From: Tricholoma matsutake
Lineage: Eukaryota; Basidiomycota; Agaricomycetes; Agaricales; Tricholomataceae
Direction of reading: 5' to 3'
Assembly (NCBI GenBank): GCA_026075535.2
Contig: AP026541.1
Span: forward strand, 12,338,001-12,402,000
DNA: 64,000 bases
Shown here: one piece after another, positions 2,135 to 57,986 of the stretch
Numbering within the stretch: position 1 is the first letter of the stretch
Layout: each line of letters begins with the position of its first letter
The notes under the pieces: model-generated
Databases searched by the model: none
What the model was told of the DNA's origin: nothing
What the model saw: only the letters and a program-made list of their open reading frames with translations
Made by a program: the position numbers and the translations under genes

Positions 2135-2536
2135 TGTTAGGAAAGAGCCCCATTACCTAATAAAATTTCATTTTTGTTTTACTATGTCAAATTACACCAA
2201 ATGATGCCAAATTATGCTACACTTTGATAGCATGAGAATTTAATTTCACATGCATCAGGATGTATGCGCATGTACATGCGCGTTGCTAACAACAATGTAC
2301 AATATATGTAACATAGTATATAAACCTTAAATATACACCTAGGGGACCCCAGTTGTGTTCTCTTAGGTATTCCACCTACACTTGTGGTGTGAAATGCCTT
2401 TCTCAACAAACTCATCTATTAATAACCCATCACATCAAAACCATCAATTCCCCCATCACATGTGTGCATCACGCCCCCTTCTTGTAGAGAGAACCCACAC
2501 AGTCTTAGCTAGTAGATAGTGGGTGTCATCCTAACA
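2135..2536 (+). repeat. Complete 3' LTR of the chromovirus remnant (402 bp)
   Basis: The repeat starts with TGTTAGGA at 2135 and ends with TCCTAACA at 2536, a perfect 8-bp inverted pair. The start abuts the pol stop codon and purine tract. A TATA-like TATATAAACC lies at about 2319. The next five bases (TGGAG) would be one copy of the target duplication, but the 5' LTR is not in the window, so it cannot be tested here. Confidence 0.88.
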
Positions 2537-2755
2537 TGGAGTGGCCAGTGGATCTGAGCTCATCTATTCAAGGGTGTGTAGCTATAATTTCAATTGCATT
2601 TGAGAAGGAAATTTATCTCCTGCAGGTAATCTTTTGTCTAAATTTTGACTTACAATTTTTGATCATTGTTATTTTGAAATAGCTCTAGCAAACTCCAGGG
2701 GTAACCCTCAGGTATATTTTCACATACCCGTACCCATGCCCATGAACACTGTACC
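2537..2755. repeat. Fragment of a TACCC/GGTA-rich MITE end, interrupted by the next LTR
   Basis: From about 2690 the sequence reads GGGGTAACCCTCAGGTATAT followed by TACCC and CCATG words. The same pattern occurs at the ends of the MITEs at 9611-10595 and 54161-55331. The LTR at 2756 begins directly inside it. The stretch 2537-2690 shows nothing recognisable. Confidence 0.5.
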
Positions 2756-3184
2756 TGTAAGGGGACAAGAGGGTGCCCCATGTGTTTCTCCTATTTTTTA
2801 CATTTGTCCTATATTTTTCCTCACCTCATTTCCTTCTATCCTTCATTTTCTATAATTTTTCCTTATTTTATTACTAATTTCCCGTTCTATCACATTTGTG
2901 CATGTTGAAGGTTTTATATTTAGAGACAGAGTACCCTTTTCGACATCTATCCCTTGGTACGATGTCATTCAGTGGCCTTGATCTGCCTATCTCTGCAGTG
3001 CCACCTTTTCTATTTTTAGACTATTATTTGATTTTTGCAGTTTTGACATATACTGGGCACTGGTAAAGGGGTCCTTAGAGTTTTCTCTTTGGATTTCCCT
3101 TTGCTAGGTGCACCTCCAATCCCTGTAATATGTAGTATAATTTTAACTTTGGATTTGTTGCTAGAGGCTGAGGTTGCCCTTATA
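2756..3184 (+). repeat. 5' LTR of a second chromovirus family (copy 1, 429 bp)
   Basis: This LTR aligns along its length with the minus-strand LTR at 61270-61695 and with the truncated copy at 20209-20544. It begins TGTAAGGGG and ends CCCTTATA, an inverted pair with one mismatch. Shared landmarks are TTTATATTTAGAG, CTTTGCTAGGTGC and GCTAGAGGCT. It precedes gag in the same direction, so it is the 5' LTR. Its CpG sites are mostly TG or CA compared with the 61-kb copy. Confidence 0.85.
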
Positions 3185-3349
3185 ATAGAAAACACTCTCT
3201 TAAGGCCCGAAATCGCAAATGTGCTGCCCAAGATAGACAGTTACAGAGTGGACGATGCTTCCCAAAGCTCCACAGACTCCCTACACACCATTCCTGACAG
3301 TCCCACCTTTAGTGTGCCACCATTTTCACCAAATGTGCCCCCTAGTGCC

Positions 3350-4460
3350 ATGGACACATCAGAGTGCCTTGACATGCTTGAAGGTGACATTACCAGAATA
3401 TGGGCACAAATCAATTCGCTTAAATCTATGATCAAAAACTTCATCAGAACCCTCCACAACCAATATTCCCCCCATTTTGACTCCAAGCATGCCCAACAAC
3501 AATGCACCACCTAATATGCCCACTAAGGAATGCGCCCAGATCAAACTGTCCCCCCCCCCCACCAAGTTTAATGGTGCGCATGCGCAGGGACATGCATTCC
3601 TTAATTCCTGTGAGTTGTACACCAGTCTCCAGTCGCATCAATTCATTGATGAAGCTGCAAAATTTTATTGGGCCTTCACATACATGAAATCTGAATGCAC
3701 CTATCTCTATGTGGTCCATATTCTGCACCAAACTAAAGAACTCGGTTCTCTACCTTTCTCCACTTGGGGTAATTCTCAAGCAGAGTTTATATGCCACTTT
3801 TGTCCCCTCAATGAGCACCACTGAGCAGTGACACGACTCGAGTCATCCTCTTACCACCAGGCATGTTGATCTGTGGACGATTATATCAATGAGTTTAAAG
3901 ATTTGGTGGACATGGCAGGATATGGGAGTGGGCTATCAGTGGTGGTGAAGTTCTGATGGGGCCTCAACTGAAAGATTCAGGACCAGATTGCACAGATGTT
4001 GGAAGGACATCCAGCAAACAACAATATCTATGCTTGGTATGAAGCTGCTTTACTCTGTGATGAGAGCTGACTCACAAATATGGTGTTTAATGCTGCATTC
4101 CATGCTCCAACTACCACCCCTGCACCCTGCACCTTCAATTGAACCCTCCCCCAGTGTAACCCCACTCCTATCCATCAGATTCCAGCACCAGCCATCAATG
4201 TTCCAGTACCAATGGATGTTGATGCAGCCCATAGCTGTGCACATAGGTTGGATCTCTGCTACCACTGTGGGGAGACTGGACACATGGCTGGAGTGTGCCT
4301 CCATCATCAGGATATTTGCATGCTCATCCCTGAGGGGCAAGATGAACTCCTCCAGGACCTGTTGGCACTTGTAGATGTTGAGGAAGCAAAGGGTCAGGTT
4401 ACAGAGGAGATCAAATCAGAGGTTGTAGATCAGCAGGATTTTTCTATTTGCAGTGAGTGA
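3350..4460 (+). pseudogene. Gag of the second chromovirus family, frameshifted, with zinc knuckle
   Basis: Gag starts near ATG 3350 (MDTSECLDMLEGDITRIWAQ). After a frameshift it continues as a core reading LSPPPTKFNGAHAQGHAFL and QFIDEAAKFYWAFTYMKSE. Stops interrupt the middle, for example after 3822. From 4212 a clean frame carries one CCHC zinc knuckle, CYHCGETGHMAGVC, the RNA-binding motif of Gag, followed by an acidic tail. It follows its 5' LTR and precedes a protease fragment in the normal retrotransposon order. It is clearly dead. Confidence 0.83.
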
Positions 4461-4785
4461 ATCATATGCCCTCATTGCCTGTCCATAACCACTTTGAAGT
4501 TTTGTCAGTTGAATCCCCAGAGAATGAATCTGATTCCATGACTATTCCCCTCTCTGACCCTTCGAAGTTTCTGACCCTTCAAAGTTGGCTGAAGACATAC
4601 CTGCCCCTCCTATCTCTCCCTCTGCCCCATGCCCCAAAATTAAATCATGGGAGTGCAAACTACCACGCAAATACATATATCATTGTGTCCACTCCCTCTA
4701 CACATTCCTTGAACCTGGCAATCAAACTACAGACTACCAACACTGGACAGATACTTGGTGTCTCTGCACTCCTAGACTCTGGTCA
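4461..4785 (+). pseudogene. Start of the retropepsin-like protease, cut off by a later insertion
   Basis: The sequence after the zinc knuckle reads LQTTNTGQILGVSALLDSGQ. The DSG triplet matches the active-site D[S/T]G of the gypsy aspartic protease, normally LLDSGAT. The protein is lost directly after this motif, where a tRNA-like composite-element end begins at about 4786. RT, RNase H and integrase of this copy are not found downstream. Confidence 0.68.
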
Positions 4786-5170
4786 GCACTTTACACTCCC
4801 CCCCCCCCCAATCCGAGCAGACTATGCTCAGACACACTCAGACACTCGGACTGTCCTCAGACTTCACTCAGACTCTGCTTGGACTCTGCTTGGACACTCA
4901 AACTGTCCAAGTTGTCCGAGTAAAGTCCTAGGACAGTCCAAGGACTGCACTTGGACTTTTCTCAGACTTTGCTCAGACAACATCAATTGTGCATTTATTT
5001 ACACCTTTAAAGTACTGTCCAAGTAAAGTCCAAGTTCCAGTCATAGAGAAAGTCTTATAAGTCTCACAAAATGATGTGTGCACAGCAGGAATTGAACCAA
5101 CAGCCTTCTGGACTAGCAATCACATGATGACAAAACAGGCATACTCTACCACTTAAGCCAAGTAGTCTTT
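4786..5170 (-). repeat. SINE-like composite-element end T1 (tRNA-like head, outward tail)
   Basis: Read on the minus strand, the unit starts with a tRNA-like head: A-box-like TGGCTTAAGTGG and B-box-like GGTTCAATTCC about 55 bp apart. A body of repeated CAGACTCTGCTTGGACTC-type words follows, then a C/G-rich tip related to GGTGGGGGAGTGTAAAGT. The B box differs from the tRNA consensus GGTTCGATTCC by one CpG-to-CpA change. Related units lie at 5712, 43218, 45366, 55796 and 57659. It sits where the gypsy protease is broken. It is not a functional tRNA. Confidence 0.7.
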
Positions 5171-5711
5171 TAAAGTTACATACATTATATCTATTTATTA
5201 CTGAAATCTAATTTTTATATATATCATGAATAGATTATTAAATTGACCCCCTTGCATCTGTGTGAGGGGTAATTAATATGTATAATACTAGGCCCTCCCC
5301 TCACAAGCTCGAGGGGAGGGGGCTGTAACTATCAATTGTAAGAATAAATTAAAAACACCCACCATGAGCAGTTGCTTGTGGCATTGTTCATCTCTCCCCA
5401 GGTTGTCCCCTGGCTGTCTTGCTCTCCTGTCCCCATTCTTCTCCCCCCCAAACCACCCCACAAGCAGATGCTCATAGGCATGGGGTGGGTGTCATTGTTG
5501 TTATCTCCCTTCCCCCTTGTCTCTTCCCCCTCACCTTCCACCCTGCGAGCAGGGGCTTGCAGCAGTGGTGGTGGTGGTGTCATCATCATCGTCGCCAGTA
5601 GTAGTTTGTACCTATAAAAAGTCAGTTAGCATCAAAAAATGAAATGAGAAAAGACAAAAAAACTTACCTTGGGTCTCCCCTAATCATCATCATTCCACCC
5701 ATCGTCCACCA
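5171..5711 (-). repeat. Hairpin-module core of a partial composite element (third copy)
   Basis: Read on the plus strand, this holds C-rich hairpins (5250-5325, with CCCCTC and GAGGGG arms), GAGCAGTTGCTTG and GAGCAGGGGCTTGC hairpins (5365, 5550), and a reversed intron-like segment whose minus strand gives GGTAAGTTTTTTTG at its 5' side (5665). This order is the reverse complement of the core in the full element at 43218-45715. It is truncated by the next element end at 5712. Confidence 0.6.
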
Positions 5712-6248: not shown

Positions 6249-7472
6249 ATGCCAACCACCCATGCCAACAAATGCAACAAGGGATCTAGCCCATCGCCAT
6301 CGAAATCCCCGCCCAAATCGGGATTACGAACCTGCAAACATGCCATACCAGCACTCAAAAAGGACGGCTCAAAGAAAGTGAAGTGAGATGAGGAGAAGGA
6401 AGAAGAGGAATGGTCTGGGAAGGGGAAAAGTAGCAAAAGGTAAGTAACCCAGCTCTTCTATCCAGCCATTATGGTACTAACATTCTATTCCTTTTTACAG
6501 GACCTCGAAAAAAGGCTCGAAAGGACAGGGTGCGGCTTTGGCCACCCCTTTAAGGTATGTTTCTTTTTTATCATCATTATGGTATACTAACATGCTATTC
6601 CTTTTACAGGACCTCAAAAAGAAACTCAAAAGGACAGGGTGCGGCTTCGGCTGCCCCTTTAAGGTATGTTTCTTCTTTATTAATATCTTTTCTCATTCTT
6701 CTTTTTCTTTCATAGAGCCGAACTCACTCTTGAAGTGAGCAGAGTTTCTGTTGCCCCCCCCAAACATGCTCGAGCAGCCAAGGAGAGTTTCCTGCCCCCT
6801 CCTCCTGGTCAGGGTGGCACTGGTCGACCCCGAGCCCTGCAGGCCCCATCCAGTGACAGTGAGGAGAGCAAAGAGGAGACCAGTGATGAATCCAGCAACA
6901 ACAACGGCACTGACAACAGCTCAAGCCACGGGGAGCCTGCAGCCGACAAGGACAATGACAGGGAGGCTGGCAACAAGGACAATGGCGAGGCTGACGATGG
7001 GAACAATGGCAAGCCCGCCAATGACACCAACGACAACACCAATGCCGACACTGACAACAGGGAGCACCAGGATGACAACGATGACAATGGCAATGGGGAG
7101 CGCCAGGACAACAATGACAAGGATGCCCAGTATGACAACAACAAGGAGGCCCAGGACAACAACGACGAGGAGGCCCAGGATGACAATGATGAGGAGGCCC
7201 AGGATGACGACATGAACACCAACGATGATGCCAGCCACAGGGAGGGCTGGGGCAACAACCACAATGGAGGCCCCAAAACCTGTGATGACACCACCAATGA
7301 CAATACCAACAATGGGGTTGACACCACCAACACCAGTGGCAGGAAGGCCATGGATGACAACGCTGGCGCCAACACCAATGATGGGGGTACTAAAACCACT
7401 AGCAAGCCCGCATTTTCTTTTTCTTTTACTGGTTACATCCTGACCATCCCCTGTCTCCATAGTAGCCCTTAG
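6249..7472 (+). pseudogene. Four-exon gene for a basic-then-acidic disordered protein; tandem 54-nt exons, one in-frame TGA
   Basis: I infer exons 6249-6439, 6501-6554, 6610-6663 and 6716-7472. The introns are 61, 55 and 52 bp, with GT-AG ends and ACTAAC branch-like sites in the first two. Read through, the phases fit: AAA-AG|G ACC TCG, then TTA-AG|G, then TTA-AG|A GCC GAA CTC. Exons 2 and 3 are near copies (TSKKGSKGQGAALATPLR and TSKRNSKGQGAASAAPLR). A TGA at 6384-6386 interrupts exon 1 between KKVK and DEEKEEEEW. Exon 4 encodes a Pro-rich start and a long Asp/Asn/Glu repeat region with EAQDDNDE units. No known domain is visible. It lies inside the composite element that begins at T2, where other copies carry only hairpin modules, so it may be that element's cargo gene. 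Function unknown. Confidence 0.62.
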
Positions 7473-42690: not shown

Positions 42691-43217
42691 TTTCACATGC
42701 TTTTTCTTGACATTCTTGCACTCTCTTTGAATGATCAAGTAAAGCCATTAAGGCATCATCAAGATATACCTCTTGTATTTTTGTCATTCTCACACTTTTA
42801 TTGAATGATCAAATCCAATTGTTGTGTGAAATATGGAATCATCAAGATATCCTGGCAGGATATTTAGTGTCATATTAGAGTATGTTGAAGGGAAACTTTT
42901 GAAAAGTGTTGTTATACACCATTCTGACCTGCTTTTCATGCCGAGTTTGAAAATGACTGTCATATGACCTACTATCAAGGAGGTTGGAGGAATCATGAAG
43001 TACTGGCATCAAGCCATTGAGCAGCGACCTCAGTTAGCAAAGATGGGGCTTGATTTTTGCTCAGCACTAGGTAAGTGTAATAATTCTCATTTTTGCTTCT
43101 ACTCAGACACTCTTTTAGCATCATCAGTGGATGCTGAACATGCATTCGCAGTTGGAAGGCTTGAGATCAATCACCTTCAGCATAACACCAGCCCACAGAC
43201 CTTCAAGGCTCAAGTTG

Positions 43218-43567
43218 AGTACTTTACACTCCCCCACCTATGCCAGTTGGATTCCGGTTTGTCTGGCTGGAATTTCTGGAATTTCTGGAATCCGGTGGAA
43301 TTTTTTTTGTATGTAGTTTTCCCTATGCAGCACAATTCTGGTCGGAATAAGGATCCAATTTACAGCTGGAATCCCTGGAATCTGACCGGACTCATCACAA
43401 CCGGAATAACAGGAATAACCGGACTAACTGGAATAACTGGACTAACCGGAATAACTGGAATGCACATGCTTTCCCAAATAAAAGTTTGACACACATCAAG
43501 AATTGAACACTCGACCTTGGGTCTGCATACATTACAGCACGCTTAACCACTGAGCTACCAAGCAATT
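43218..43567 (-). repeat. SINE-like end T3 of element E1
   Basis: On the minus strand the head has an A box TAGCTCAGTGGTTAAG identical to the tRNA consensus TAGCTCAGTGGT, and a B-box-like GTGTTCAATTCT about 50 bp on. The body repeats GGAATAACTGGACTAAC words, then GGAATTTCTGGAATTTCTGG. The outer tip is GGTGGGGGAGTGTAAAGTAC. The presumed Pol III direction is outward. Confidence 0.75.
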
Positions 43568-43845
43568 ATTCTTGGGCATACATTTAATACTTTTATTACC
43601 CAACCAAGGTACATAGTTAATCACAGCCATTAACGGAATAATTAATAAGTATGCATATGCATGACACGTGACACATGACTGCCAGCTCACAACCACCACC
43701 AGCACTGTTGCCAATGCCGCCTCCTCCTCCTCTCCACTCTACCACCACCACTGCATGCGCACCCACCACCACCATTCCCATGCCCAATGCCACCATCACC
43801 ACCACCTTAAAACGAGCTGACTGGATGGAATGTGGGCCCAAACGA

Positions 43846-44402
43846 TGCAGATCACATCGTTTGGGGCCTAAGTATGTCTTTTTTCGTTTGCTTCTTGTTT
43901 TTTCATACTAACTAACTTGTTTTGTTTGTTTTATAGGTTCTACTTGACTGCCAGACATAACATGGGCCCAAACGACATGATTGGACAGAACACAGGCCCA
44001 AACAATGCAGATTGTGTCGTTTGGGACCTAAGTAAGGTTTTTTTTCATTTGCTTTTTGTTTTTATAAACTAACTAACCTTTTTCTTTTTTAGCTTTCTAG
44101 GTTATAATCTACTGGCAACGATGCCACCACTTGGAAATGAGCCAACACGGGCCCAAACGATGCAGATCGCGTCGTTTGGGCCCTACGTAAGTTTTTTTTG
44201 TTTGGTTTTTGTTTTAATAAACTAACTAACTCATTTTTTTTAGTTTTCTAGGTTATAATCAACTAGTAACGGCGCCACCACCCGCAAACGAGCCAACATG
44301 GGCCCAAACGATGCAGATCATGTCGTTTGGGCCCTATGTGAGTTTTTTTCATTTGCTTTTTGTTTTTATAAACTAACTAATTGTAATTTATTGCTTTTTA
44401 GG
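43846..44402 (+). repeat. Tandem intron-like units with GGGCCCAAACGATG hairpins (E1)
   Basis: About four units of roughly 120-157 bp. Each has a hairpin GGGCCCAAACGATGCAGATC with an inverted arm GTCGTTTGGGCCC. This runs into a donor-like GTAAGT (or GTATGT, GTGAGT), then about 60 bp of T-rich sequence with CTAACTAAC and TTTTTTAG, then GTTATAATCTACTAGTAACG and CAAACGAGCCAACA. Donor, branch and acceptor are at normal fungal intron distances in every unit. Confidence 0.8.
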
Positions 44403-44625
44403 TTGTATACTACTGGGGACGACCTGCCACGACAAAAAATGTGCAACCCACACCCACACCCATGCCCACCTGATCCCCTCCTCCCCATTCAAATGGGATG
44501 TGAGGCTGTCGACACGGGCTAGGAGGGTGCAGAGGGATGCCAGGAGACCCTGGAAGGGGGGTACCTGTCTAGTAAGCACCCACCAACCTCTGTACTCATG
44601 CCATGTCGCACTGATGTGCACAAAC

Positions 44626-44656
<31 letters not shown>

Positions 44657-44700
44657 GAAAAAAACAGAAATCCAGACAGGGGACAACAGCGACAAACAAT

Positions 44701-45000
44701 GACAAGCCACCCACCCCCAGCCTCACGAGCAACTGCTCGTGGGGTGGATCATGGGTGGAACGACAACAATGACAAGCCCCCCACCCCCAGCCTCACAAGC
44801 AACTGCTTGTGGGGTGGAACGTGGGTGGAATGGTACCCAGGTGCAGGGATAGGAGGCAACAATGCACCACCCGCCCCCAGCCTCATGAGCAACTGCTCGT
44901 GGGGTGGATCGTGGGTGGAACGACAATGATGACAAGCCACCTACCCCCAGCCTCATGAGCAACTGCTCGTGGGGTGGATCATGGGTGGAAGGACAGACAA
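44701..45000 (+). repeat. Four GAGCAACTGCTC hairpin units (E1)
   Basis: CCACCCCCAGCCTCA, then GAGCAACTGCTCGTGGGGTG, then GATCATGGGTGGAA-type sequence repeats four times. CCAC...GTGG extends the stem around GAGCAACTGCTC. A C-run of about 20 bases at 44627-44646 precedes it. The same hairpin occurs at 26297, 51551, 52227, 54630, 56990-57230, 58530-59060 and 60710-60890. Confidence 0.8.
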
Positions 45001-45018
45001 CAGCGGGGTCGCGTCCCC

Positions 45019-45300
45019 TCCCCCTCCCCCGCACTTTGTGTGGTGAGGGATTTTTTTTGTACTTTTAATTATTTATTAGTATTGTGCCCCCCCTCCCCCG
45101 TTTTGTGTGGGGGAGGGATTTTTTTCTTCATGTTTTTACCTCCCCCCTCGCATTTGGCATGAGGGGTTAGCTTTTTATGTATATAAATAAAACTCCCTCT
45201 CGCATCTTGTGAGAGGGAGGATTTTTTGTTTATGTATATAATCACAATCATGCCCACTCCCTCGCATTCAATGTGAGGGATGTGGTTAATTAAAAAAATT
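45019..45300 (+). repeat. C-rich hairpin run (E1)
   Basis: Five short imperfect palindromes follow one another: CCCCTCCCC...GGTGAGGGA, CCCTCCCCC...GGGGGAGGG, CCCCCCTCGCA...GAGGGG, CCCTCTCGCA...GAGAGGGAGG and CCCTCGCA...GTGAGGGA. T-rich or AT-rich spacers separate them. They resemble strings of terminator-like stems. Confidence 0.75.
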
Positions 45301-45365
45301 TGATCTTAACTACTTCGAAAAAAATTAGAGTGTCATGAATAAACATTATATTACTATCTAATAAT

Positions 45366-45715
45366 TCTCCTGTGGCTCAACTGGTTAAGCACACATGTTT
45401 GGTTTGTCATGTGATCACTCTAATCAAGATGTCTTGAGTTCAATCCTTACTCTGCACAAATATATTTTGTAGCCACTTTGACAACTTAAGACTTGAAATT
45501 TGACTATCCATTAGGGTATATACTCTAAGTTGAGGATCTGGAGTAACCAGAATAACTGGACTCCAACCAGAATAACTGGACTCCAATCAGAATAACTGGA
45601 CTCTGACCGGAATAACTGGACTCTGACTGGAATAATTGGACTCCAACTGGAATAACTGGACTCCAACCGGAATAACTGGACTCCAACCGGAATAGGTGGG
45701 GGAGGGTAAATTACA
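45366..45715 (+). repeat. SINE-like end T4 of element E1
   Basis: The head has A-box-like TGGCTCAACTGGTTAAGC and B-box-like GAGTTCAATCCT about 65 bp on. The body carries seven GGAATAACTGGACTCCAACC-type units (45548-45695), the same word as in T3. The outer tip is AGGTGGGGGAGGGTAAATTA. The head is inside and the tail outside, mirroring T3. Confidence 0.75.
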
Positions 45716-45961
45716 GCTCAAGTTGCAGTTGGATCTTGGGCCAAAACTCCACTCTATCCAGGGAAACCATTAAGATTGTTCAGAAGCAAATGGGAAGTGA
45801 AGAGCAGGTGGGACCTCAGAAAAAAGTTGATGAGACTGAGTTGGAAGATAAGGTAGAAGAGACAGATGAGGAATCCAAGTTCTGTAGAACTTGATGATTA
45901 AAAGAAGCAGTCTTAAGTACAAATTTTACTCAGTATAATAGATAACATCATGTGTGCCAAC

Positions 45962-55795: not shown

Positions 55796-56156
55796 TGAGG
55801 TCTTTACACTCCCCCACCTTTCCCATTGGACTCCGACTGGAGTCCACTGGGACTGGTCACCAGCCAACTGCTGCAAAGTTGCCAGTCCAGTCCCAGTCCA
55901 GTCCGACTGGACTTTGAGTGGAATCCACTCAAACACCGGATTCCACTCAGACTGGTCCAGTGGAGTCCAGTTGGAGTCTGGTTGGAGTCTGGTTGAATTC
56001 CGGTTGGAGTCCAGTTGGATTCCAGTTGGATTCCAGTTGGAGTCCAGTTGGATTCTGCTCAAAAAGTGTGTAAGAAAAGGAATCGAACCCAGATCCCTGT
56101 CAGTTGCATATGTAATCATAACACACAATATAACTGTTACACCACAGTACCTTGTT
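55796..56156 (-). repeat. SINE-like end T5 of element E2
   Basis: The minus-strand head carries an intact B-box GGGTTCGATTCC at about 56080 and a weak A-box-like TGTGGTGTAACAG at about 56145. The body is made of GGAATCCAACTGGACTCCAA-type words. The tip is GGTGGGGGAGTGTAAAGA. It is the only copy whose B box keeps its CpG. Confidence 0.72.
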
Positions 56157-56392
56157 TAAGGTATCATCTACTTGTGCTAGGCACTGTGTGTGGCTGTGTA
56201 TGACAAAGCATATAGCCGCGTCATCAAATGTGCCAGCTCATCACTCACCACCACCACCACCACCATCGATGGCTGCCTCCCTCCCTCCTCTCTCTACCAC
56301 CACCACTGCGTGGACACCCACCACCACTGCGTGGACACCCACCACCACCGCTCCCATGCCCAATCCGCCATCACCACCACCCGCAAACGAGC

Positions 56393-56945
56393 CCAATGGA
56401 TGGGCCCTACATAAGTTTTTTTTTCGTTTGCTTTTTGTTTTTATAAACTAACCAACCTGTTTTCTTAGCTTTCTAGGTTATAATCTACTGGCAATTACGC
56501 CACCACTCGCAAACGAGCCAACACGGGCCCAAACAACGCGATCTGCGTCGTTCGGGCCTTATGTAAGTTTTTTTCGCTTGGTTTTTGTTTTTATAAACTA
56601 ACTAACTCTTTTTTTTAGTTTTCTAGGTTATAATCTACTAGTAACGACACCACCACTTGCAAACGAGCCAACGCGGGCCCAAACGACGCCGATCGCGTCA
56701 TTTGGGCCCTATGTAAGTTTTTTTCACTTGGTTTTTGTTTTTATGAACTAACTAACTCGTTTTTTTAGTTTTCTAGGTTATAATCTACTAGTAACGACAC
56801 CACCACCCGCAAACGAGCCAACGCGGGCCCAAATGATGCAGATTGCGTCGTTTGGGCCCTACCTGAGTTTTTGTCATTTGCTTTTTGTTTTTATGAACTA
56901 ACTAACTCGTTTTTTTAGTTTTCTAGGTTATAATCTACTAGTAAC
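56393..56945 (+). repeat. Tandem intron-like units with GGGCCCAAACGACG hairpins (E2)
   Basis: Four units with GTAAGT-like donors (the first mutated to ATAAGT, the last TGAGT), AACTAACTAACTC branch-like sites, TTTTTTTAG acceptors and a GGTTATAATCTACTAGTAAC segment after each. Spacing between stems is about 140-157 bp (56527, 56684, 56823). CpG sites in the stems are better kept than in E1. Confidence 0.8.
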
Positions 56946-57658
56946 AACGCCACCACCTGCAAACGAGCCAACACACCCACCCCACGCCTGCGAGCCCCCA
57001 CTCGTAGGGTGGATCGTGAGTGTGTGCAGTCGACGATGCCTACCAGCACCCCCCAAAGCCGACAACACACCCACCCCATGCCTGCGAGCCTCTGCTCGCA
57101 GGGTGGATGGGTGGTGAGAGCCCATGCCGACGAGCAGCTGCTCGTCGGGTGGATGGCGGGCACACCAGGGATAAGACGACCACAGCACCCATCCCCACGC
57201 CTACGAGCAACTGCTCGTAGGGTGGATGATGGGTGTGGCTTGCTACGGCGACGGACGCGTGCGAGGAGGGGTGGGCGACGACACCCACCCCAGACTGCAT
57301 CCCCCAACCCCCCCTCCCCCGCATTTTGCATGGGGAGGGGTCTTTATTATTTTTAATTTATCTCTGCCCCCCCCCTCGCACTGAATGTGAGGGGTATATA
57401 TATTGTAGTACTTACGAATCCCCCCCTTGCGCCGAATGCGAGGGGTTTAGTTTTTTATGTACATAGTAATAATCCCCCCCCTCTCGCATCTTGTGAGAGG
57501 GTTTTTTTTTGTTTATTATTATATTATACCCACTCCCTCATGTAGGACACGAGGGATGTGGTTAATTAAAATTTTTTGATCTTAATTGTTTGAAAAATGC
57601 CTCCTCAAAGAATATGAAAAGTTAAGTCATAAATAAACCTTATATTGATCCCCAATAA

Positions 57659-57986
57659 ATCTCCTGTGGCTCAAGTGGCTGAGCACACTTGTTTGGTTTG
57701 TCATGTGATTCCTTATGGTGAGGTCTTGAGTTCAATTCCTGCAGTACACAAATTTATTTTGCAGGTACTTTATGAAATTCACCAAGTCCGAAGTCCTTTC
57801 AGCTCATATCCAATTGACTTATCATTTGGTTGCACTCAGACTCCAGTTGGACTCCAATGGGGGATTGAACTCTACATGACTTAGTGTAGTTCAATTGGAC
57901 TCCACTCAGACTCCACTCGGACTCCAGTGGACTCTGGTCAGTCCGGTCGGAGTCCACTAGGACAGGTGGGGGACTGTAAAGTACTG
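57659..57986 (+). repeat. SINE-like end T6 of element E2
   Basis: The head carries an A-box-like TGGCTCAAGTGGCTGAGC and B-box-like GAGTTCAATTCC about 70 bp on. The body has GACTCCACTCAGACTCCAC and GGACTCCAGTGGACTC words, the same word family as T5. The tip is AGGTGGGGGACTGTAAAGTA. Confidence 0.75.

Follow-up and report, generated by a model that had tools for sequence, protein, structure and literature searches.

A 2.5-kb segment of the Tricholoma matsutake genome carries two tRNA-like units in opposed orientation, with repeat tails pointing outwards, and a direct repeat is found at both of its edges. The locus raises the question of whether retroposed SINE-type units or one DNA element inserted there and, in the second case, to which class the element belongs and what its tRNA-like units may do. 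We analysed the segment in the window, i.e. the whole 64,000-nt stretch (G000:C4:12338001-12402000; all feature coordinates below are window positions), and in the genome it comes from, of 161,040,721 bp in 13 contigs.

A single insertion with an exact empty site

The direct repeat GCTCAAGTTG occupies positions 43208-43217 and 45716-45725, bracketing a single 2.5-kb unit with inverted ends. The earlier note on this DNA had reported both copies correctly and had read them as a 10-bp target-site duplication. This length has to be revised: because the duplication is 8 bp family-wide, the element spans 43217-45716 (2,500 bp) and its duplication is CTCAAGTT, at 43209-43216 and 45717-45724. Each of the two surplus positions of the 10-bp repeat matches the terminal G of the element to a target G.

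The note had also proposed that the entire unit moved as one, and this was borne out. The flanks joined through one copy of the duplication matched all 40 places scored in the same genome (113 candidates), with 95-96% identity; 39 of the alignments span all 183 bases and one spans 181. In the one empty site that was read (L077), the sequence runs CAAGG-CTCAAGTT-GCAGTT continuously, without insert, and the sole indel relative to the window is of 7 bp and distant from the junction. Since the joined flanks match uninterrupted copies and L077 is an exact empty site, it is established that the window copy arrived as one insertion event. We presume that the interrupted target gene is of the hAT type, as previously called; a Pfam search of its frame recognised no family and gave no confirmation of this call.

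The features of the window copy are the following.

43209-43216, no strand: left target-site duplication CTCAAGTT, 8 bp (from the family register and the empty site)
43217-43242, plus strand: left terminal inverted repeat (A end, or GAG end), GAGTACTTTACACTCCCCCACCTATG (from inverted repeat I2 and the 36-copy consensus)
43243-43461, plus strand: left subterminal repeats of the GGAAT..CCGG type, with a 9-bp period at 43267-43291 and 43399-43461
43480-43565, minus strand: left outward tRNA-like Pol III-type unit, with A box at 43547-43557, B box at 43500-43508 and TTTT at 43480-43483
43834-44400, plus strand: internal array of ~151-bp units, each with a 94-nt palindrome-bearing segment, then a 57-64-nt intron-like segment (GTAAGT..CTAAC..TAG)
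44690-44990, plus strand: internal ~70-bp units with the short palindrome CACGAGCAACTGCTCGTG
45010-45285, plus strand: hairpin-like units, four repeated (repeat D8, 45020-45227) and one further right, most preceding T runs (hairpins by eye)
45365-45468, plus strand: right outward tRNA-like Pol III-type unit, with A box at 45373-45384, B box at 45438-45446 and TTTT at 45465-45468
45545-45694, plus strand: right subterminal array, 7.5 copies of a 20-bp unit
45691-45716, plus strand: right terminal inverted repeat (B end, or CTG end), AATAGGTGGGGGAGGGTAAATTACAG (from the inverted repeat, the tip search and the 36-copy consensus)
45717-45724, no strand: right target-site duplication CTCAAGTT (from the family register and the empty site)

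Two tRNA-like units with outward repeat tails are thus present in the window copy as first described. The proposal that SINE-type sequence serves as the terminal inverted repeats holds in part: such sequence lies near both ends, but the inverted repeats proper consist of the ~22-26-bp tips and the arrays, and the tRNA-like units are placed just internal to them. Terminal inverted repeat I2 of the window copy measures 53 nt, with 81% identity. In the interior, the tandem units at 43834-44400 resemble pairs of an exon (94 nt) and an intron (57-64 nt), on one strand only. At least two intron-like segments are found on the plus strand in 18 of the 36 copies compared (defined below) and on the minus strand in none of the 36.

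A high-copy family with asymmetric paired ends

The matsutake genome holds hundreds of copies of this apparently non-coding family, with constant and asymmetric ends (GAGTACTTTACAC... and CTGTAATTTACCC...). The A tip GGTGGGGGAGTGTAAAGT has 387 exact matches in the genome, as against none for its reversed control, and the B tip GGTGGGGGAGGGTAAATTACAG has 338, or 732 when three mismatches are allowed. We fetched 10 kb around each of the first 20 A tips, used as anchors. A convergent B tip lies within 4 kb for 17 of them; together with a neighbour copy in L013, these pairs make 18 elements of 1.75-3.98 kb. Three anchors remained unpaired at this distance, namely L020, L013 and L028; for the last two, an exact B tip was located at 7.9 and 8.5 kb, respectively.

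On contigs C1-C3, 96 exact A tips were considered, and 47 of them converge with an exact B tip within 5 kb (median 2.27 kb), compared with one divergent and four same-strand A-B arrangements within the same distance. Among the tips listed for these contigs, like tips converged within 5 kb in a single case for A and in none for B. This excess of convergent A-B pairs over other orientations indicates that the ends are constant, asymmetric and paired. A sister group is delimited by a C tip (CAGTACTTTACAC, 362 exact matches) and a D tip (GAGGTCTTTACAC, 941 exact matches), and 13 C tips on C1 have a convergent D tip within 5 kb.

In the consensuses of the two ends (36 copies), CpG columns have a mean identity of 67%, compared with 94-96% for the other columns. 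This decay, as expected from methylation and deamination, suggests that the copies are methylated. One arrangement departs from that of the regular copies: a right and a left core of the tRNA-like units, at G000:C1:44499(-) and 46214(-), point the same way and are separated by 1.7 kb, which may reflect a rearranged element or two adjacent ones.

The target-site duplication is mostly 8 bp

We determined the register of the duplication over 36 elements. These comprise the 18 paired copies, 17 copies out of 20 fetched in addition, and the copy in the window. L032, L035 and L049 were left out as they did not satisfy the exact-terminus parse, one spurious second pairing within the window was removed, and L010 and L038 have common flanks, so that the 36 copies represent 35 independent sites. 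The best register is 8 bp, with the termini GAGTACT (or AAGTACT) and ATTACAG. The duplication is perfect in 19 copies, has one mismatch in nine and two or more in eight; in a swapped-flank control, 0.4% of 1260 combinations were within one mismatch. The check put forward by the earlier note, on the pairing of inverted tips a few kb apart, favoured a composite element: a partner lies within 4 kb for 17 of the 20 anchors and, when up to one mismatch is allowed, 28 of the 36 elements have an outer 8-bp duplication. In the sister group, all ten C-D pairs read have a duplication, of 8 bp in eight cases and 9 bp in two; both tips were exact in each of these pairs, which are therefore among the better-kept copies. 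Paired inverted ends and a duplication of fixed length with an exact empty site (one read), as in DNA transposons with terminal inverted repeats (TIRs), characterize the family, and its description as a DNA element was upheld.

Outward Pol III-type units at both ends

The units were scored with the common A-box and B-box consensus. At the left end, an outward A box and B box are present in 32 of 36 copies with a start-to-start spacing of 47-51 nt, and a TTTT run follows 16 nt past the B box in 30 of these 32. The right end has them in 31 of 36 copies at 63-66 nt, all 31 with TTTT 18 nt past the B box. The box pattern was found in 0 of 36 copies on the opposite strand at each end and in 2 of 186 interior pieces. 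The ends of 20 copies from this set were used to make 12,000 shuffles in which dinucleotides were approximately preserved; 0.45% of the shuffles had the pattern and 0.09% had TTTT as well. Since the members of a single family do not test the boxes independently, we give more weight to the ends of other families.

Both Pol III boxes of the head of a tRNA-derived SINE are thus found in these units. The Rfam tRNA model gave no match in the window copies (at E<10 for the first copy, at E<1 for the others) or in 13 further sources (E<0.1). RNA folding of four units yielded no cloverleaf and was not better than that of shuffles (z -0.47 to 1.48). Judged by these motifs and folds, the units look like promoters rather than tRNAs.

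We also searched for units standing alone, the finding that, according to the earlier note, would have spoken against a composite element. Exact right cores number 383 genome-wide, of which 100 were listed. An exact B tip lies within 800 bp of 52 of these 100, and 61 have an exact tip of either type (B or A); four read from the remaining 39 all end in a diverged or variant tip. There are 140 exact left cores, of which 100 were listed, 34 of them on C1-C2; 27 of these 34 are accompanied by an exact A tip or by a right core that converges on them, and seven by neither. The DNA that had been chosen by tips contains 22 right and 15 left cores; 21 and 14 of these, respectively, have a tip within 900 bp outwards, and the copies with the remaining two cores have their tip at a greater distance. 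Thus, no isolated tRNA-like unit was found among the right and left cores that were checked.

A whole-genome search with the Rfam tRNA model gave at least 55 places (63 of 11061 candidates scored). Twenty of the places listed, on C1-C3, have an identical score of 56.3 bits over 74 nt and include two pairs at a distance of ~295 bp, a pattern suggesting that many copies of a single real tRNA gene have been dispersed.

Related families with the same layout

Parts of other elements are present in the window.

55797-57986, plus strand: second family, with a GAG end (GAGGTCT..) and a CAG end (..AGTACTG); duplication CAATATTT / CAATATTC, one mismatch
4784-5710, plus strand: third-family end (CAGCACTTTACAC..) carrying a right-type unit that reads outwards; 85% match to an end of L072

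Each end of the second-family element bears an A/B-box unit directed outwards, and a 150-bp intron-like array occupies 56401-56972. Its interior shares the plan of the first family (intron-like, palindromic and hairpin-like arrays); L072 is devoid of those modules. The third-family end is interrupted at 5711 by a further A-end copy of the first family, whose B end was not found within the window. In this copy, exon/intron-like short repeats are seen at ~6440-6700 and an acidic, Asn/Asp-rich open frame at ~6716-7470 (by eye).

Six further ends carry the box pattern, namely both ends of 55797-57986, the 4784 end, both ends of L072 and the 5711 end. The spacing is normal in five of the six; the boxes of the 5711 copy occur only at the abnormal spacing of 34 nt, and this end was counted as decayed. 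As 85% of 475 aligned columns agree between L072 and the 4784 end, these two represent one family, which makes, with the second family, two other families and not three.

The right end of the second family aligns with the third-family end or one L072 end (L072a) mainly over the unit (96 nt, 72-73%), and with L072a also over the tip. The right ends of the first and second families are 73.7% identical over 224 columns comprising the unit and ~100 bp inwards, so that conservation between them is not limited to the unit. From these alignments across families, the right-type unit is one homologous piece at the CAG/CTG ends of all families seen. The left units gave no BLAST alignment across families outside the tips and arrays and have only the boxes in common; the GAG-end units, similar in layout, may or may not have common descent. 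L073 and L074 show the variant tip GGTGGAGGAGTGTAAATTACTG after a right-type unit and are probably one more family.

Search for a transposase

Open frames in 19 copies do not exceed 303 residues, and the two longest, of 303 (L023) and 270 residues (L027), match no Pfam family. Larger copies had been expected to encode a MULE transposase. The three copies of more than 5 kb that were read whole (L029, L030 and L031) have instead grown by insertions, whose terminal direct repeats measure 136, 426 and 412 bp, respectively. Pfam identified a reverse transcriptase in the L030 insert and its RNase H in that of L031, and nothing above cut-off in L029. The L029 insert (2450-5230 of that sequence) is a small LTR-like element nested in a family copy, of 2.8 kb with its 136-bp terminal direct repeats and a 628-residue frame without Pfam match above cut-off. 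A reverse-transcriptase frame accompanies the partly read copy of L028, an aspartyl-protease frame lies beside the unpaired copy of L020, and we take the long frame of L013 to be Copia-like.

The genome contains hAT, KDZ and MULE transposases, with 60 matches for MULE and at least 165 for KDZ. None of the 44 hAT domain places listed on C1-C3 (150 of 449 candidates scored) lies within a convergent pair of listed A, B or C tips; for three of the 44, one flank has, within 8 kb, a tip that faces outwards. Similarly, the 54 KDZ places listed on C1-C3 (150 of 831 candidates scored) gave no convergent pair of listed A, B or C tips, and one has a single outward-facing B tip within 8 kb; no KDZ place was found between the D or C tips listed on C1 (D up to 12.3 Mb). 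No MULE match of the 20 on C1-C3 lies within 10 kb of the 400 listed tips (the first 100 of each kind). Thus, no transposase partner was identified in the copies read or between the listed tips.

What kind of element is it?

These elements insert as units, with paired ends, an 8-bp duplication and outward tRNA-like units. They probably constitute a family of non-autonomous, cut-and-paste DNA transposons with inverted repeats, an 8-bp staggered cut and Pol III promoters in their ends. Several observations count against this explanation: no transposase partner turned up in the copies read or between the listed tips, eight of the 36 copies have no duplication within one mismatch, and the two 9-bp duplications loosen the 8-bp rule. 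The negative Rfam and folding results, the limited alignment of the units across families and the different interior of L072 are further points on that side.

The tRNA-like heads with A and B boxes and the simple-repeat tails would also be found if two SINEs, or an inverted SINE dimer, had come about by joint insertion or by template switching in reverse transcription, and SINEs are known to dimerise. However, the duplication is fixed at 8 bp, the outer ends are paired inverted repeats and not A-tails, and one A end goes with one B end. Neither the single-unit insertion and 3' tail of SINEs nor their variable duplication was found here. Such a joint SINE origin is highly improbable, and we reject a SINE or SINE pair on account of the fixed duplication, the lack of tRNA-like folding and the absence of solitary units among those checked. 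Like tRNA-derived SINEs, these elements have an A/B box promoter, a T-run terminator and no coding capacity that we could find; they differ from them in having two inverted units per element, set within DNA-transposon ends, and the fixed 8-bp duplication.

Among DNA transposons, the elements resemble those with TIRs and 8-bp duplications (hAT, KDZ/Zisupton and some MULEs) in their inverted ends, exact empty site, apparently non-coding nature and high copy number. In contrast with these, they have outward Pol III-type units, asymmetric tips, and intron-like and hairpin arrays in the interior. The three superfamilies are sub-cases of the explanation given above. Many hAT ends begin with CAG, as do some ends of these elements, and some hAT groups, though not all, prefer nTnnnnAn targets. 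This T2/A7 pattern is absent from the target sites of 28 A-B and eight C-D copies, which have T at position 2 in 9/36, A at position 7 in 11/36 and an enrichment of A at position 2 (21/36). The other end is GAG or CTG, and none of the 44 listed hAT places is inside convergent listed tips. An 8-bp duplication is nonetheless usual for hAT, according to the part of PMC12730594 that deals with duplication lengths, and we consider a non-autonomous hAT element possible, if rather doubtful. The same part of that source gives 8-bp duplications for Zisupton and a Dileera family, so that this length fits hAT and Zisupton/Dileera best. For a non-autonomous KDZ element of the Zisupton/Dileera type, which is unlikely, the abundance of KDZ in the genome is a further argument; on the other side, none of the 54 listed places is inside convergent tips or, on C1, between D or C tips.

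The range of MULEs includes 8-9-bp duplications and long, complex ends, both of which are seen here, and MULE transposases are present in the genome. However, most duplications are of 8 bp and not 9-11 bp, and the 20 C1-C3 matches are all remote from the listed tips. The Mutator membership suggested by the earlier note thus found no support in the genome search, and we regard it as quite unlikely.

Two described systems come close to a combination of SINE-type sequence and DNA transposon, or to a SINE-like dimer. MER6/MER6A is a mariner MITE that has captured a SINE body and tail, and thus similarly has SINE-type sequence in a non-autonomous DNA transposon; in the passages of PMC6887750 that treat it, the SINE piece is internal and without the tRNA-related head, whereas the present elements have tRNA-like heads at both ends and across families. 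megB1 is a SINE-like (Alu-like) dimer of Agaricomycetes, including Tricholoma section Caligata. The passages on megB1 in PMC10627285, with which we compared the present elements by description, call it a retrotransposon; it occupies the rRNA spacer in many Agaricomycetes, and section Caligata has one copy at a different location.

A possible role of the Pol III-type units

For the non-autonomous TIR transposon that we favour, a transposase encoded elsewhere would act in trans, binding the tips and the subterminal arrays of 9, 11 and 20 bp, and would cut and paste the element with an 8-bp staggered cut in the target. The outward units, judging from their boxes, may recruit TFIIIC and Pol III. 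They could act as a bound promoter or boundary that holds the ends open against silencing. Such a role would be likelier than one of the RNA itself, because the predicted product of ~100 nt would not fold like tRNA. The CpG decay, which suggests methylation, would give an anti-silencing role a purpose.

We tentatively raise the possibility of a more general design of Pol III-marked TIR ends, in which outward promoters near the GAG and CAG/CTG ends would be structural components on which mobility or the evasion of silencing depends. No such arrangement of outward Pol III units in the ends of TIR transposons was found in the limited open-licence literature, in which the nearest case is that of PMC6887750.

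According to the repeat annotation figures in PMC10211490, the T. matsutake genome comprises 25.4% unclassified repeats, 13 SINE copies (757 bp) and 2,342 'small RNA' repeats (1.94 Mb). A two-promoter, high-copy family such as this one could belong to the unclassified repeats of this repeat-bloated genome. If our reading is true, hundreds of potential Pol III/TFIIIC sites have been seeded across the matsutake genome, and the family lends itself to testing, in a natural setting, whether the ends of a DNA transposon can use Pol III promoters as functional components.
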